From assembly GCA_025463055.1 (NCBI GenBank), contig JAOAPV010000016.1, forward strand, positions 1-45,289: a stretch of DNA of 45,289 nucleotides. The letters are read 5' to 3'. Position 1 is the stretch's first letter. The number at the start of each line of letters is the position of its first letter. Below the pieces are notes generated by a model, which saw only the letters and a list, made by a program, of their open reading frames with translations, searched no databases and had not been told where the DNA came from. Source of the stretch: Candidatus Acidiferrum typicum. GTDB taxonomy: Bacteria > Acidobacteriota > Terriglobia > Acidiferrales > UBA7541. A program made the translations under genes and the position numbers. Below, piece by piece: positions 298 to 36,614 of the stretch.

Positions 298-522
298 CTA
301 ACGGCCGTGACGTTTTCCGTGACAACTGGCACAGAGCGTAATCAAATTCTGCGCTACGTCACCGCCCAGTTGGCTCCTGCTCTTAATGTGGTGAACCTGC
401 AAGTCCTTCATCGCGCCGCAGTCTTGACACCGCCAACCATCTCGTTTCAGAACGTGGTTTCGTAATGCGCCATAGTCTTCCGGCTTCAGCCTGACTCTTG
501 GTTGCTTTTGATGTAGGCCCAT
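298..522 (-). CDS. HNH endonuclease, small
   Basis: A 74-residue protein that is almost entirely one HNH nuclease domain. CQDCG (first zinc pair) is followed by VHHI with the catalytic histidine pair, then an Asn in NLITLC and the second zinc pair CASCH, closing with GKRHGR. Such proteins make metal-dependent nicks or breaks in DNA and are common in phages and mobile elements. ATG at 522 is preferred over the TTG at 525 because GAGGAA sits just upstream. It is the fifth gene of the leftward operon. The substrate is unknown; it could be a packaging, homing or recombination nuclease. Confidence 0.85.
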   Translation of the reverse strand: MGLHQKQPRVRLKPEDYGALRNHVLKRDGWRCQDCGAMKDLQVHHIKSRSQLGGDVAQNLITLCASCHGKRHGR

Positions 523-538
523 CAAATTCCTCGGCGAG

Positions 539-1198
539 CTACGATGAACCCGACGGACAAGGGTCTTCTAATTTGGCGCCTGCGAGAAAATCCGCGCAGA
601 TCATCTCCAGGCAGTAACCCCTAGACTTGTCGGTTCCGAGCATCAGACCGGCAGTTTCAAGGGCCTTCTCGACCACGGGCAGTTGGCTCTTATAGAGCTT
701 GAAATAGATGATCTCCCAAGGCTCTGTTTCTTTGCCCGTGAGATGGCGTTCGACCTCTCCCTTAAACCCCTCCTTCGGTAATTCCTTGGCTTTGTGCAAC
801 CAGGTTGCACAATCGAATCGTTCCCCATCTTTCCTCGCCACCTTGACCAGCTCGGTCGCTTTGCTCCAACCCACCTCGCGAAGTTGCGGCTTTGGAATTT
901 TCGTGAGGTTCTCGTGAATCGCCATCAGGTAGTAGGCCTTCCGGCGCGAGTCAGGGAAACGCTTTGCGAGGAATTCATCAAACGACTTCAGGCTCTCTAA
1001 CCTCCAGTACTGCTTCGACCTTACCTCACACAGGTATTCCCCAAGCTCAACAAAGCGCGCGTCCTTCTCCTGTTCCTTGGTCTTCTCCCAGCTCAAGATC
1101 TCGTCGATCTTGCCTAGTATGAACACCGCGCGTCGGCGATTTAATTCGGGTGCCACGGCCGCCCGCCCGTCAGTCCACAAGCTCGTCAAGCCAATCAA
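539..1198 (-). CDS. uncharacterised mobile-element protein (219 aa)
   Basis: I do not recognise a family. The protein is charged and helical, with no signal peptide or membrane segment. A segment around residues 80-120 (FPDSRRKAYYLMAIHENL, then LREVGWSKATELVKVAR) resembles a DNA-binding helical region like those of some phage replication or plasmid proteins; this is inference. The TTG at 1198 has GGGAG about 9 bases upstream and overlaps the end of the nuclease gene by 29 bases, which suggests translational coupling. A GTG at 1156 is an alternative start lying after the nuclease stop. It belongs to the leftward operon with the HNH gene 16 bases beyond its stop. Confidence 0.6.
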   Translation of the reverse strand: MIGLTSLWTDGRAAVAPELNRRRAVFILGKIDEILSWEKTKEQEKDARFVELGEYLCEVRSKQYWRLESLKSFDEFLAKRFPDSRRKAYYLMAIHENLTKIPKPQLREVGWSKATELVKVARKDGERFDCATWLHKAKELPKEGFKGEVERHLTGKETEPWEIIYFKLYKSQLPVVEKALETAGLMLGTDKSRGYCLEMICADFLAGAKLEDPCPSGSS

Positions 1199-1973
1199 GG
1201 TCGCTCGCTCCCGGCTTACGGATGAGTTTCGCCTCCACTAACTGCTCGTTGTTGAGGCACAGCCCCAGATGGGAACAACTTACGCATCCATTTTGTGGAA
1301 ACCGAATGCCGCTATGGGAATGGAAATGGCCGGCCTCGATCTGGTTAGTGGTGGTTTCTACCAGTCGGCCGAATTCTTGCCGCTGCTCCTCGGAAATCGT
1401 TGCTCTTAAATATTGAATTTCCGGAGCATGCTTCCGCACAAAAACGACCAGGGCCACCTCGGGAATGCCAGTGATCCACGAATAGCAAATGAGTTGAGGA
1501 TCGAGTGAAAGTAAACCTTCCGGGCCGTCCGGGTAACGACTTGTCGTGGTCTTCCAGTCAATCAGGCAACGCACGCCGTCGATCTCGCCAATCGCATCGA
1601 GATAGGCAACAAATTCGTTGCCGCCCGTCAACCTTTGGAGAAATTTGACCTGGAGATCCTTCCGTGGATTGTGAATGCGAACCCGACCATCCTGCGCGAA
1701 CCTCTGCAGCAGATGGACCCCCTGATGCACGAACCGATCCCAAGTCTCCCCCTTTTTGAACTCAAAGGGAGTATCGCGGTAGGCCTCCCATTCGTTGAAC
1801 AGCGCCGCGCTACAATCCTCTTCGCGGAAGTAAGCTCCCAGAGCATTCTCAAAACAGCGGCCAAAGGCCATAGCTGCGCGAGTTTCTTTTTCCCGCCAGC
1901 CATCGAGGTAGCGGTAACGGTAGCTGCGCGGGCAGCGGAGATATTGACTGATTTGAGTGTGGCTATAAACCAT
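1170..1973 (-). CDS. PD-(D/E)XK nuclease, Cas4/RecB-like with Fe-S cysteines
   Basis: A 267-residue nuclease. The N-terminus SHTQISQYLRCPRSYRYRY is the usual Cas4/RecB-family opening with the first cluster cysteine. The catalytic core reads AYLDAIGEIDG, then LIDWKTT (the D-X-K motif) with DPQLICYSW after it. The C-terminus has C-x2-C-x5-C (CVSCSHLGLC), giving the four cysteines expected for a 4Fe-4S cluster as in Cas4 and AddB. ATG 1973 follows GGAGG closely and overlaps the upstream stop by 11 bases. An upstream in-frame extension to about 2357 is an out-of-frame reading of the neighbouring gene. Likely role: exonuclease of a phage-type recombination pair. No cas genes or CRISPR repeats are nearby. 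Confidence 0.85.
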   Translation of the reverse strand: MVYSHTQISQYLRCPRSYRYRYLDGWREKETRAAMAFGRCFENALGAYFREEDCSAALFNEWEAYRDTPFEFKKGETWDRFVHQGVHLLQRFAQDGRVRIHNPRKDLQVKFLQRLTGGNEFVAYLDAIGEIDGVRCLIDWKTTTSRYPDGPEGLLSLDPQLICYSWITGIPEVALVVFVRKHAPEIQYLRATISEEQRQEFGRLVETTTNQIEAGHFHSHSGIRFPQNGCVSCSHLGLCLNNEQLVEAKLIRKPGASDLDWLDELVD

Positions 1974-2415
1974 CGGAACCTCCGCGCCCATCCGGCGCCT
2001 CGCCGTTATTAGGGGAAATGTGTGAGAGTGCCTCCCAGTCGCTGGCCGGGGCGAACGAATCCAGATTCTGGTAAGAGTGCCCATGCACGATTTTGTGCGA
2101 GGTACCAACAACGCCGTGAAGGTTTGCGAGAGCTTTTTCATCCACTTGATCGCGGTTGAGCAGGTCGCCATCGTAGCCAAAGTTTCGGAGAAACCAATGG
2201 AGCTTCCAAAGGGCTCTCTCGGTGCAATACAGCCGGCCGAAAAATGATCGGCCTTGATACGACGCGGGCTCCAAGATGACGAATCGGAGCTCCACGAATG
2301 GTTTTTGTGGATGCCGCCGGAACCATCCTTTGTCCACACGAACCAGAAACAATCCATGCAAGCCGGCTTCGGAATCTTGGTGCCTTGAATCCAGGCCGGG
2401 AATCTGATGTCTCAT
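1963..2415 (-). CDS. DUF669-like phage protein (tentative)
   Basis: A 150-residue protein. The pattern PFVELRFVILEPASYQGR, followed by FFGRLYCTERALWKLHWFLR, resembles DUF669 phage proteins, which have a beta strand, a G-R-x-x-(F/W) turn and a helix, and often sit beside recombination genes, where they may bind single-stranded DNA. The match is by eye and tentative. ATG 2415 overlaps the TGA of the upstream gene (ATGA), and the stop at 1963 overlaps the nuclease start, so the gene sits inside a translationally coupled operon. Confidence 0.55.
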   Translation of the reverse strand: MRHQIPGLDSRHQDSEAGLHGLFLVRVDKGWFRRHPQKPFVELRFVILEPASYQGRSFFGRLYCTERALWKLHWFLRNFGYDGDLLNRDQVDEKALANLHGVVGTSHKIVHGHSYQNLDSFAPASDWEALSHISPNNGEAPDGRGGSDGL

Positions 2416-3146
2416 TGCGTAACCCCCGCTACGGGCTGCGCATAGGAATTAAGTCGGCAGACCAACATGTCCCTGCTTTCTTTTGCGCATGCGGTGAGGT
2501 GCGAAATAAAGGACTGCACCAGATCGCGATTCGCTTCTTTCAGGGATGGCGTGCCGCAGAAATCGGCGGCGTATGCTTTAACGAGAGTGGGATCGAGATT
2601 GTGCTGGCGGATCAGCAGACAGAGTTGATCCCGCAAACGAGGTTGGCCATTGCTCGAACCGCTGGTGGAGTGATTCGTCGACTGAGCATGGTCCGAGGCC
2701 TGACCGCGATTGGTGGAGAGCGAGCCCAGTTCCTCGACGGAGCAGACACCAATCCCGTACGCCTTGCGCAGGGCTCGGTTGACGGCTCGCGTTTCGGCGA
2801 TGCGCATCTCTGCCCCATGGACAAGAGTGGAAACATTGGACGGATCGGCGTCCCCATAGCCGACGAACCCTTTTGAGCGAGGACACTTGTATACAGTCGC
2901 CTTAAAAACCCAGCGGTTAGCAACCGGATCGGAGAGGCGCTCTTCTACTGTTGTCTTGATTCCGCCGCAACGGCGTCGGAAAGCTAAGTAGAGAAGCCCG
3001 GAGTGAGTTATGTACCATCGCCCATCGAGAAGTTGAAGGTGGCCTGCTGTGACTGAGACTCGATACGTGTCAGTTAGCTGGGCTAAATTGTGCAAAGAAT
3101 CCTTCGAAAGCCCTCCCCAATTCCGTCGTGCACATGTCACGTTCAT
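2412..3146 (-). CDS. putative phage single-strand annealing protein (Rad52/Erf-like)
   Basis: A protein of about 244 residues, first gene of the leftward operon. Its middle contains VGYGDADPSNVS, then AEMRIAETRAVNRALRKAYG. This combination is seen in phage Rad52/Erf-like annealing or DNA-repair proteins, which load onto single strands made by a partner exonuclease. The partner would be the Cas4-like nuclease two genes downstream. After about residue 150 there is a Ser/Asn/Gln-rich linker and a second helical domain. Two starts are possible: ATG 3146 (used here, beginning MNVTCARRNW) and ATG 3200, whose GGAGG is rather far (12 bases) upstream. The family assignment is by motif only. Confidence 0.55.
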   Translation of the reverse strand: MNVTCARRNWGGLSKDSLHNLAQLTDTYRVSVTAGHLQLLDGRWYITHSGLLYLAFRRRCGGIKTTVEERLSDPVANRWVFKATVYKCPRSKGFVGYGDADPSNVSTLVHGAEMRIAETRAVNRALRKAYGIGVCSVEELGSLSTNRGQASDHAQSTNHSTSGSSNGQPRLRDQLCLLIRQHNLDPTLVKAYAADFCGTPSLKEANRDLVQSFISHLTACAKESRDMLVCRLNSYAQPVAGVTQ

Positions 3147-3245
3147 GCGCCACAATTCGGATTTGTTTCCTATTATTTTAGTTCTAAGAGAAGAACGCAT
3201 CGCTTGTCAACACCTCCATTTGGTAAGCTACTGCCCGGCTGGCCC

Positions 3246-3298
3246 TTAACAGAATGGACTCAGCCACGAGCATACTCGTAAAAAGAATACTCGTAAAA
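3246..3298 (+). promoter_or_regulatory. divergent control region with palindromic operator
   Basis: A perfect inverted repeat ACGAGcataCTCGT lies at 3266-3279, followed by the direct repeat ATACTCGTAAAA at 3272-3283 and 3287-3298 (15-base period). The second copy touches the ATG of the XRE gene. A promoter-like TTAACA (3246-3251), N19, CATACT (3271-3276) places the -10 inside the palindrome. This is the geometry of an autoregulated phage-type repressor between divergent genes. Binding by the adjacent XRE protein is inferred. Confidence 0.55.
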
Positions 3299-3555
3299 TG
3301 AATAAAGTCAAGCAGAAAGCGGCAGGGCGTCCGCGTCGATCTGACGGCGATATGGACTTGCGAGCCCTCGGTAGCCGGCTAAGGCAGCTACGGGCTCAAA
3401 CAACTCAGGAAGAATTTGCCACGTTTCTTGGCATAAGCCAGGCCCAGCTATCTAAGTACGAACTGGGCCAATCAGCTCCTCCGCTCGGTGTCTTGGTCAA
3501 GCTAGCTGAAAAGTATGGCAAAAGTACCGACTGGATACTGACTGGAAGGAACTAG
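3298..3555 (+). CDS. XRE-family (Cro/CI-type HTH) transcriptional regulator
   Basis: An 85-residue protein with a basic N-terminal tail (KAAGRPRRSD) and one helix-turn-helix of the Cro/C1 type (residues about 22-78): LGSRLRQLRAQTTQEEFATF, then LGISQAQLSKYELGQSAPP, and a closing helix LVKLAEKYGKSTDWIL. There is no peptidase or oligomerisation domain. It is divergent from the recombination operon and sits directly on the palindrome described above, so it is likely the element's repressor and autoregulator. No clear Shine-Dalgarno precedes ATG 3298, so the mRNA leader may be very short. Confidence 0.85.
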   Translation: MNKVKQKAAGRPRRSDGDMDLRALGSRLRQLRAQTTQEEFATFLGISQAQLSKYELGQSAPPLGVLVKLAEKYGKSTDWILTGRN

Positions 3556-3780
3556 GGTCTCATGGCTGTGGAAAGACAGACCGATCTCCCGTCGGCAGTT
3601 GAGAGCAAACGTCAACCGCGTCATTCTGCGGAAATCATTGTTGGATTGTTCCCCACCCATCCGAGCCGGGCGAACTAGTACTCCAGACGTCGCAAATCCC
3701 ACGTACTTCGAAATGACGAACTGGCGTGATATATTTGCATGTATCCCAATCTACATTTCTGGCCGACTAAGGAGTGTGCC

Positions 3781-5183
3781 GTGGCCGTAGTGCGTCAAGA
3801 GCAAGTACGACATCACAGGCAGGTCTCGCTCACGCAAAAACCCAGGGTGATTTCGGCTCCGATCTTGGAGACTGGGTTCGCGGAGCTGGAGGATGGTTCG
3901 CTCGTTGAAATGATCGAGGATCCCGAGAATTCGGCCAGAACTCTGTTCGCCATCTTCAAAAATGGCGAAATGCGCACGGCTCGCCACATTAAGACTGAGG
4001 GACGAGTCTTAAGGCCAATTTCACGCGAAGAGGAAATCGTAAGGGATATTCGTCTACCTCGGGGGGTTAAGCACTACGAATCAGTTGCAGCGCTATTGTG
4101 GCGGATTAACGACGAAATCTTGTCACGTTGTTTAGATCTCGAGGACAACGACAGGCTCCTTCTTGCATGTTTCGTTCTAAGCACGTGGTTCATCGACTGT
4201 GACCGCTTGCCTGTGGCGCCCTATGTCTCACTTGTTGGGCTACCCGCTTCGGGAAAGTCAACGGTGCTTAAAATATTGAGACTGCTATGTCGTCGCAGTT
4301 TGCTTACAGCTGATATCTCCCCTGCCGCTTTCTATCGAGCCTGCGACAGACTCATCCCTACCCTGCTGATTGACGAGACGGCAACTGCGGGTACTAGCAG
4401 GAACCTGTTCCACCAGCTACGTATAGGAAACTCCCGGGAGGTCGTCGCCCTTCGCAAGGGACAATCCTTCAGAGCCTATGGTGCGAAAGCCGTAGCTTGG
4501 AACGAACTCCCAATGATTCCGCCTTGAACAGTCGATGCATCGTGATTCCAATGAGCGCCACCAGTCGTACCGACCTGGCAAGGCCGACGGATCCGGCCAT
4601 TGTTACGGCAGCGGACGATATTCAAAAGCAGCTCTTGCAGTATAGGCTAGAAAAATTCAAGTCCATCGCCCTTTCAAATGATCTGGCAGGTGGACACCTG
4701 CATGGGCGCTTCCGGGATTTATATCAGGCTCTTGCGCTCCCCATTAGTGAAGTTACGTACTACTGCCAGTGGTTGATGCATTGCTTTAAACTCCAGCAAC
4801 AGTCCAACCGCGAACCACTATCGGCAGATCACGCGGCGATTGTGGGCGTGCTCTATAAGGCGATTCATCTGGGTAAGCGAGAGACTTACAAAATCCGTGA
4901 CCTAACTGCCGAGGTAAATGGCAGTCTTCGGGAAGCAGGCGAGCCACGCCGTCTCACTCCGCGAGGCGTTGGCGCGGCTCTGACGTCTCTAGGAATTACC
5001 ACGCGAACGCGAACAAACCAAGGCTGGTTGGTCTGGATGAATCGAGACTTGCAGAAGCGCATTCATGATTTGGTTGTCCGTCATGGGTTGGACAATGAAT
5101 ACTTCCTGCCGCACCGGCTACTCTGTCAGGGTTGTGACTTGTGTGACGCTGACAAGGACCTAAGAAACTACCGGTTTTGTTGA
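3781..5183 (+). pseudogene. P-loop ATPase/helicase-like protein, frameshifted
   Basis: Two reading frames join into one protein of about 466 residues. The first (GTG 3781, preceded by AAGGAG six bases upstream, to about 4512) carries Walker A VGLPASGKST and Walker B PTLLIDE. The second, running to TGA 5183, continues with NSRCIVIPM, a helical region and a C-terminal CQGCDLC. The join is at CTCCCAATG near 4508-4516; one missing base would restore WNELPNDSALNSRC. The fold resembles the primase-associated helicase-like ATPases of mobile elements. There is no classic slippery heptamer, so mutation or a sequencing error is more likely than programmed frameshifting. An ATG-initiated piece at 4497 is an artefact of the second frame. 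Confidence 0.65.
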
Positions 5184-7520: not shown

Positions 7521-8150
7521 TTGAAGGCAGTGTGGGGCTTCTTGTCGTGGGAACGCTGCAAGGGGGAAGGCTTCGTCATGGTCGAGCTGCTCTTTCTCCC
7601 GAGCGTGTATGCACCGTGTCCCACGTGTCACGGAGCGCGCTTCAACGCGAAAACGCTCGAAGTGAAATACCGCGACAAAACCATCGCCGACGTACTGGGC
7701 ATGACCGTCGATGTAGCTTGGGCATTCTTTGCAGACGAACCGCACGCCCGGCGCTCTCTGACGATCCTCCGCGAAGTCGGGTTAGGCTACGTCCGGCTTG
7801 GACAACCGGCGATCTGACTTTCCGGCGGTGAAGCACAGCGCATCAAACTGGCGACGGAGTTGCAGCGCATCCAGAAAGGCGACACGCTTTACGTTCCCGA
7901 CGAACCCACCACCGGTTTGCATCCAGCAGATGTGGAGAAGCTCATGTCGCAGCTCCACGGCTTGGTTGACGCCGGCAATACCGTTATCGTGATCGAGCAC
8001 GATATGCGCGTCGTCGCCGCCAGCGACTGGGTTATCGATATTGGCCCCGGCGCGGGAGAGGACGGCGGCCGTATTGTGGCTTCCGGCACTCCCGCGGATG
8101 TGGTTCTGGCAACTGGGAGCCGCACCGCACCTTATTTAGAACATTTATGA
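7521..8150 (+). pseudogene. UvrA C-terminal half, fragment with in-frame stop
   Basis: The fragment covers the second ATPase module of excinuclease subunit A. It has zinc-finger residues (ERCKGEG, then APCPTCHGARF), the ABC signature [15 protein letters not shown], a Walker B reading [12 protein letters not shown] (normally LYVLDEP), the H-loop VIVIEHDM and the usual ending [15 protein letters not shown] at 7815-7817 interrupts the frame just before the signature, where the family has a short Ala/Thr stretch. The N-terminal ATPase and UvrB-binding domains are absent. It is a decayed copy; a working uvrA would have to be elsewhere. Confidence 0.85.
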
Positions 8151-36224: not shown

Positions 36225-36614
36225 ATCGCCGGAGCGCAGACTCTTTCCCAACTCCGACAGGGGTCGCTCGTAGACCTTGTTAACACGCTGCAGGAATTGA
36301 CGGCGCTCGACGTGGGCTTCGTTTCGCTGAGCGAAGCGCTCGATCTCACCACCCCGAGCGGCCGTGCTCTCGCAGGCATGCTGGCCGTGTTTGCGGAATT
36401 CGAACGTGATATTTTGCGGGACCGGGTGAAGGCGGGAATCGATCAAGTGCGAAAGGACGGGAAACCGCATGGGCGGCCAATGACCGCAGGTAAACTCGTG
36501 CCGGAAATGAAACAGCTTCGCAAGGACGGGATCAGTAAGCGGGCCATCGCCAAGCAACTCGGGGTTAGCCGCACCTCGGTTATCCCGTTGCTGCGTTCCC
36601 GGAAGCGCTCCTAA
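36225..36614 (+). pseudogene. serine recombinase (resolvase/invertase), C-terminal remnant
   Basis: Codons from about 36225 to 36614 encode the C-terminal half of a resolvase: a helical part (LVNTLQELTALDVGFVSLSE), the conserved TTPSGRALAGMLAVFAEFER with RDRVKAGIDQ, and a DNA-binding HTH (ISKRAIAKQLGVSRTSVIPL). The N-terminal catalytic Ser domain (about 100 residues) is missing, and the frame runs backward into the upstream TAG at 36222-36224. It cannot be an active recombinase. It marks this zone as a former insertion site. Confidence 0.75.

Follow-up and report, generated by a model that had tools for sequence, protein, structure and literature searches.

A five-gene operon resembling the Red recombination systems of phages recurs in soil Acidobacteriota. 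We think, with somewhat better than even confidence, that it derives from phages and lives in the chromosomes of these bacteria as small repressor-controlled elements, usually without phage body genes nearby, whose copies recombine. The operon was studied in Candidatus Acidiferrum typicum, in a window of 45,289 nucleotides that is one whole contig (JAOAPV010000016.1, here G000:C99) of a 146-contig genome. Five open reading frames (ORFs), called F, E, D, C and B from first to last, lie on the minus strand at positions 298-3200, and each junction is an overlap or a 13-bp gap. These coordinates confirm the five leftward genes with overlapping or closely spaced ends reported in a first-pass annotation of this DNA. 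The contig ends 297 bp past B, and the left neighbour of the operon lies outside the window.

Genes of the operon and their conservation

D (1170-1991, minus strand) encodes a PD-(D/E)XK nuclease. It matches Pfam PDDEXK_1 above the cut-off (8e-16) and the exonuclease family phrog_1218 (1.2e-13). Among 52 members, C14, D126, K141, Q160 and Y164 (numbered from MVYS) are invariant, and C230, C233, C239 and E139 are conserved in at least 90%; the window has D at position 139. RecB-type nuclease residues and four conserved cysteines are both present, and we take them to be the RecB/Cas4 motifs. The annotation's Cas4/RecB-like nuclease is upheld by these matches and cysteines, but its 'Cas4-type' label is not: against TIGR00372, the NCBIfam cas4 model, D scores 17.6 bits where the cut-off is 65. 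Judged from its sequence, D appears to be Cas4-like by resemblance and not a cas4 by score. Its likely start is 1991 or 1973; an ATG at 2357 in the ORF list merely lengthens the open frame. The window was also said to hold no CRISPR, in agreement with its direct repeats of at least 22 nt within 120 bp, which form just two families of two copies each.

F (2412-3200, minus strand, 262 amino acids) is a predicted single-strand annealing protein. It has no Pfam or NCBIfam match, including none to a Rad52, Erf, Sak or RecT profile, and its PHROG matches are all to families of unknown function. The evidence comes from a structural model with a predicted local distance difference test (pLDDT) score of 85.8. 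Its best structural rows are lambda Red-beta (7ujl; Z 8.4, 120 aligned residues) and human RAD52 (Z 6.4-7.3), and it scores Z 5.7-5.9 against Sak of phage 80alpha. Rows 1 and 2 of a Foldseek search are RAD52 (E 4e-3 and 6e-3). These moderate fold scores suggest that F belongs to the Rad52/Red-beta superfamily of annealing proteins. A Rad52/Erf-like candidate had been named here before; the predicted fold favours it and sequence profiles do not. Searches of solved-structure sequences gave rows that look like chance for F (TALE repeats, a ribosomal protein) and for C, and no rows for D or E.

The last gene, B (298-525, minus strand, 75 amino acids), encodes a small HNH endonuclease, as proposed earlier, and passes the Pfam HNH cut-off (6.4e-12). 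C (539-1198, minus strand, 219 amino acids) overlaps D and deserves its earlier description as an unknown protein: it has a sub-threshold Pfam match, a match to a phage family of unknown function (phrog_17202, 1.9e-14) and a low-confidence helical model (pLDDT 62.5) for which a fold search returned nothing below E 1. E (1963-2415, minus strand, 150 amino acids) is a small conserved protein that overlaps F by 4 bp. No significant Pfam family was found in its 58 aligned members, and its former DUF669 label falls away, since none of the 58 matches that Pfam family at E values up to 1. Profile comparison of E with one phage single-stranded DNA-binding protein (SSB) gave no match; an SSB-like role for E is a guess from gene position. 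With D and F in one operon, the likeness to the phage pairing of nuclease and annealing protein, already remarked on, seems sound at the level of sequence and model.

Is the gene set more than a chance assembly? The recurrence of the same order in relatives argues that it is. We collected 84 F loci (L numbers; genomes carry G numbers): 80 from Acidobacteriota genomes, which are the best 80 of 100 relatives in a profile scan for F with one genome per species, all Acidobacteriota by title, and 4 close loci from a viral collection. Of the 43 loci that extend 3.3 kb or more from the start of F, 36 keep all five ORFs open in the order F-E-D-C-B, bearing out the suggestion of a conserved acidobacterial module, and in the other 7 at least one gene is short or missing. 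Median spacing, with longest-ORF starts, is -4 bp for both F/E and C/B. D matches occur in 30 genomes among 101 relatives, 14 of them strong (E <1e-43, own genome included) and 16 weak. Fifteen loci fetched from 13 of these genomes include 6 with a complete, unbroken F-E-D-C-B; the remainder are cut by contig ends, interrupted, fragmentary or, in L039, devoid of F and E, and none of the 15 shows an alternative gene order.

By record titles the hosts are mostly Terriglobia, and F is patchy among them, with profile matches in 30 of 399 genomes of the class and 18 of 136 genera. One isolate with a copy (L085) is Occallatibacter savannae. Single sequences are poor probes: F alone, searched against 297 genomes of the phylum, recovered only the window's own genome. 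D alone found no relatives in viral contigs and phages, and a D profile found nothing in viral contigs, yet two loci fetched from the viral collection with F hold D. Single-sequence and D-profile scans missed known relatives, and therefore their negatives mean little. We found no paper in the open literature on such an operon in Acidobacteria.

Some copies are damaged or rearranged. L045, L047 and L049 are degraded, and in L046 (8976-11268) IS21-type genes interrupt D. In L079, L043 and L106, partial copies of C and B are repeated with other genes between them, as if material had been added at the B end.

Heads and tails of the operon

The 80 loci fall in 49 assemblies, and 18 of these carry at least two; the window's own genome gave a single match each for D and F in searches of its contigs. 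When copies from the same genome are compared, E, D and C prove to be under constraint, with ratios of nonsynonymous to synonymous substitution (dN/dS) mostly of 0.05-0.2. The residues of F that precede its core, roughly the first 50, are ~0.2-0.4 identical in such copies and mostly saturated; the exception is the pair L069-L099, in which the F start is 0.73 identical and the regulator the same. Does this reflect weak constraint alone? Fourfold-degenerate sites diverge there too, which argues that it does not. In 38 within-genome pairs, identity at these sites is 0.27-0.31 in the F start, 0.38-0.59 in the following part of F, 0.56-0.76 near its end and 0.61-0.76 in E, D and C. DNA matches between copies of one genome mostly begin inside F and end near the end of B.

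A tree of E, D and C (55 rows in 12 groups, one of which is two viral contigs) clusters by assembly, requiring 15 changes against a shuffled mean of 26.1, and none of 200 shuffles was as low. Across genomes, 16 pairs have similar heads; several of these have much less similar tails and others are alike throughout. In the pair L119-L112 the regulator is 0.88 and the F head 0.82 identical, but E is 0.56 and D 0.70. Because similar heads sit on dissimilar tails in different genomes, head and tail seem to have had partly separate histories. Copies appear to meet and recombine, the tails becoming homogenised within a genome and the heads staying diverse. The immunity regions of temperate phages stay diverse as well.

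The head includes more than the start of F. In the window, an XRE-type repressor gene (3298-3555, plus strand, 85 amino acids; Pfam HTH_3, 8e-15) diverges from F at a distance of 97 bp, and the diversified part of F corresponds to a predicted N-terminal helical hairpin region (3048-3200, minus strand) that in relatives tends to accompany the regulator. A script found a small divergent regulator upstream of F in 74 of 84 loci, assigned to the classes RHH1 (38), XRE (17), RHH5 (13) and GGK (6), where the RHH names denote sub-threshold Pfam matches and GGK a motif seen by eye. Ten loci lacked a regulator by script; two of them, L067 and L070, have a GGK-like ORF by eye. Heads could be compared in 67 loci, after exclusion of 17 of the 84 (no regulator, or a cut or too-short F). 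The regulator class is the same in 43 of the 45 head pairs with identity of at least 0.5, and both class-breaking pairs involve L106. Where core identity is at least 0.75, heads reach 0.5 in 40 of 203 same-class pairs and in 2 of 287 different-class pairs, again both with L106. Shuffled labels were as extreme as observed in 0 of 5000 trials for the head and 394 of 5000 for the core.

Why should the start of F follow its regulator? The SaPI2 satellite offers a precedent. Its repressor Stl2 responds to the annealing protein Sak of phage 80alpha (PMC11846896). Because that satellite repressor binds an annealing protein, co-diversification of F head and repressor through contact is a fair proposal from analogy, and plain linkage explains it too. 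In SaPI2, too, a repressor is tied to an annealing protein, but that protein is another phage's (PMC11846896); here repressor and F are neighbours, and contact is proposed.

We can now outline how such an element might work. The divergent repressor would keep the operon off. Upon derepression D would trim double-strand ends, E might bind or hand over the single strand, and F would anneal it to a homologous strand. B, with C, might cut or nick DNA and so start exchange. The outcome would be exchange between copies, with the tail, from the F core to B, homogenised within a genome. The head, meaning the repressor and F's first ~50 residues, would stay diverse and be common to several genomes, much like the immunity types of temperate phages. 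Self-driven spread of the operon is possible.

Chromosomal setting and competing explanations

The surroundings of the operon are largely those of a bacterial chromosome. The 20 neighbours scanned in related loci are mostly host-type or without family (MFS, PMI, O-antigen ligase, S41 peptidase, CHAT, VanZ). Two phage structural families were searched for in 21 module genomes: capsid family PF05065 is present in 7 and portal family PF04860 in 4, and neither lies near the module, the sole match on a module contig being a portal gene separated from an F fragment by 390 kb. Among the matches listed, which extend down to E about 2.6e-23, the nearest tyrosine integrases on module contigs are ~12 kb (G349:C155) and ~18 kb (G330:C61) away. 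One copy can be compared with empty sites. In G649 it is part of a ~7-kb insertion: the flanks, 7.4 kb apart there, have homologues separated by ~0.47 kb in G614 and ~0.37 kb in G706. For the L072 copy, the relative's contig ends at the site compared; for L120 the right edge alone agrees, with homology resuming ~70 bp past B and the left flank unmatched.

A phage origin is suggested by distant relatives of F. In a Paenibacillus phage, the genes immediately on either side of one such relative encode a host-nuclease inhibitor and an SSB, and a second phage relative is annotated as a DNA repair and recombination protein. Near F relatives in viral contigs, ten neighbours were scanned, among them 2 Gam-like proteins, 2 head proteins (on one contig) and 1 topoisomerase. 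Flanks fetched for 19 distant phage loci yielded neither D nor E; C turned up in just one other viral contig.

Several observations weigh against our reading. As to F, no Foldseek match falls below E 0.001, an unrelated dsRNA-binding domain reaches Z 6.7 in its structural list, and, by the tool's own warning, a top Z of 7-8 commonly arises even where no true relative exists. E and C carry no assigned function. Shuffling regulator labels does not correct for descent. A within-class Mantel test was significant for RHH1 (0 of 2000; L106 excluded for its duplicated F start and weak regulator call) but not for XRE, RHH5 or GGK, and the F start in the window favours no regulator class. Three of the 12 groups in the E-D-C tree do not cluster. 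The G649 insertion also carries two genes not tied to the module, and neither end repeats nor a target duplication could be made out convincingly. The assemblies are mostly fragmented, with contigs often breaking off at the module. Finally, the module in L133 has a terminase gene nearby (3.5e-106), and those in L064, L130, L131 and L132 have terminase-like genes (weak matches, clustering). Because such genes adjoin the module, some of the copies may be parts of larger phages or satellites.

Those terminase genes also speak for a different view of the loci, as remnants of ordinary prophages in which the operon is the last part left after decay. The phage relatives of F fit that view, as do the three degraded copies and the IS21-type insertion in L046. 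We nevertheless consider it unlikely: decay is hard to square with five open genes in 36 of 43 covered loci and low dN/dS, and near the module neither of the two capsid and portal families was found and the 20 scanned neighbours are mostly host-type or without family. Those same neighbours, together with purifying selection, would suit a domesticated host operon for repair or DNA uptake, one that benefits the cell and is not mobile. We judge this improbable, since the operon is patchily distributed, often occurs more than once in a genome at unrelated sites, has an empty counterpart in relatives at one site and comes with varied regulators. A nuclease, an annealing protein and an HNH protein might also form an anti-phage defence operon that moves with defence islands, and Cse1/Cse2-type cas genes just past the module in L041, or S41 peptidase and CHAT-domain genes running into F in L050 and L051, would be expected company. 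Yet defence-type neighbours are single cases among the loci, and PADLOC finds nothing for C, E or F and, for HNH and Cas4, only weak matches of a generic kind; we give a defence role as little credence as domestication.

We thus return to a phage-derived operon living in the chromosome under repressor control. A bolder version of this reading, which we put forward tentatively and think rather doubtful, is an undescribed class of small mobile element without an integrase or transposase of its own. It would copy and exchange itself by its own end-trimming and annealing enzymes, and its swappable head would serve as an immunity or incompatibility type, perhaps through direct binding of the repressor to the annealing protein.

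Flanking genes and known systems

Next to the repressor gene in the window is a P-loop ATPase-like gene (3739-5183, plus strand). It is split here into two overlapping ORFs where relatives have one of ~424-477 amino acids; the split is either a break or an assembly error. Among the 66 loci with sufficient flanking sequence, 11 likewise have this gene divergent from the operon. In 15 of the same 66, the upstream gene belongs to a different divergent family, seen in L121 (6328-7554) and relatives, with a GPxTxxGKxRSxxNAxxHG-like motif detected by eye and no convincing family match. Further along the window, at 7521-8150 (plus strand), two pieces in different frames resemble the C-terminal part of UvrA by eye and have no Pfam match; the DNA at 7772-8094 within this stretch is matched in many genomes of the genus. 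A fragment of a resolvase-type recombinase lies at 36264-36464 (plus strand), 33 kb from the module.

Other loci have their own features. Past the module in L041 (2028-7234) are genes for Cse1, Cse2, a CRISPR_assoc family, a CT1975-like protein and Cas5, and an XRE-like gene (by eye) stands between them and the module. In L050 (3382-7544) and L051 (3284-7440), CHAT/TPR and S41 peptidase genes are co-directional and run towards F. A ~57-bp repeat at 12150-12210 of L121 is scattered in dozens of copies through G649 and G614.

How does the operon compare with known systems? As in phage Red/RecET modules, a nuclease and a protein predicted to have the Rad52/Red-beta fold share one overlapping operon. 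Unlike those modules, it encodes a nuclease of the PDDEXK_1 family that is Cas4-like and has four cysteines, along with an HNH protein and two additional conserved unknowns, and it is chromosomal, with no capsid or portal of the searched families nearby in the tested genomes. The Erf/Sak3-SSB-HNH early modules of Firmicutes phages are similar in lining up a gene for a Rad52-superfamily annealing protein with one for a small partner and, in some cases, an HNH gene; they differ in that no nuclease of D's kind is named in the accessible part of that account (PMC8093625). Cas4-like nucleases of pfam12705 outside CRISPR are also reported from phages, and D matches this Pfam family (PMC5704561, main text). 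The main text of that paper does not contain the words annealing, Rad52 or Acidobacteri (PMC5704561).

What we describe has the look of familiar recombination machinery that resides outside a phage. What is new is the contrast, within genomes, between a homogenised tail and a diversified head of repressor and putative annealing protein. With dozens of related examples in a single bacterial group, these annealing operons form a natural series. It opens two questions to experiment: whether such an operon can spread when it lacks an integrase, and whether a repressor senses the annealing protein of its own operon. The operons are candidates, too, for genome editing in Acidobacteriota.

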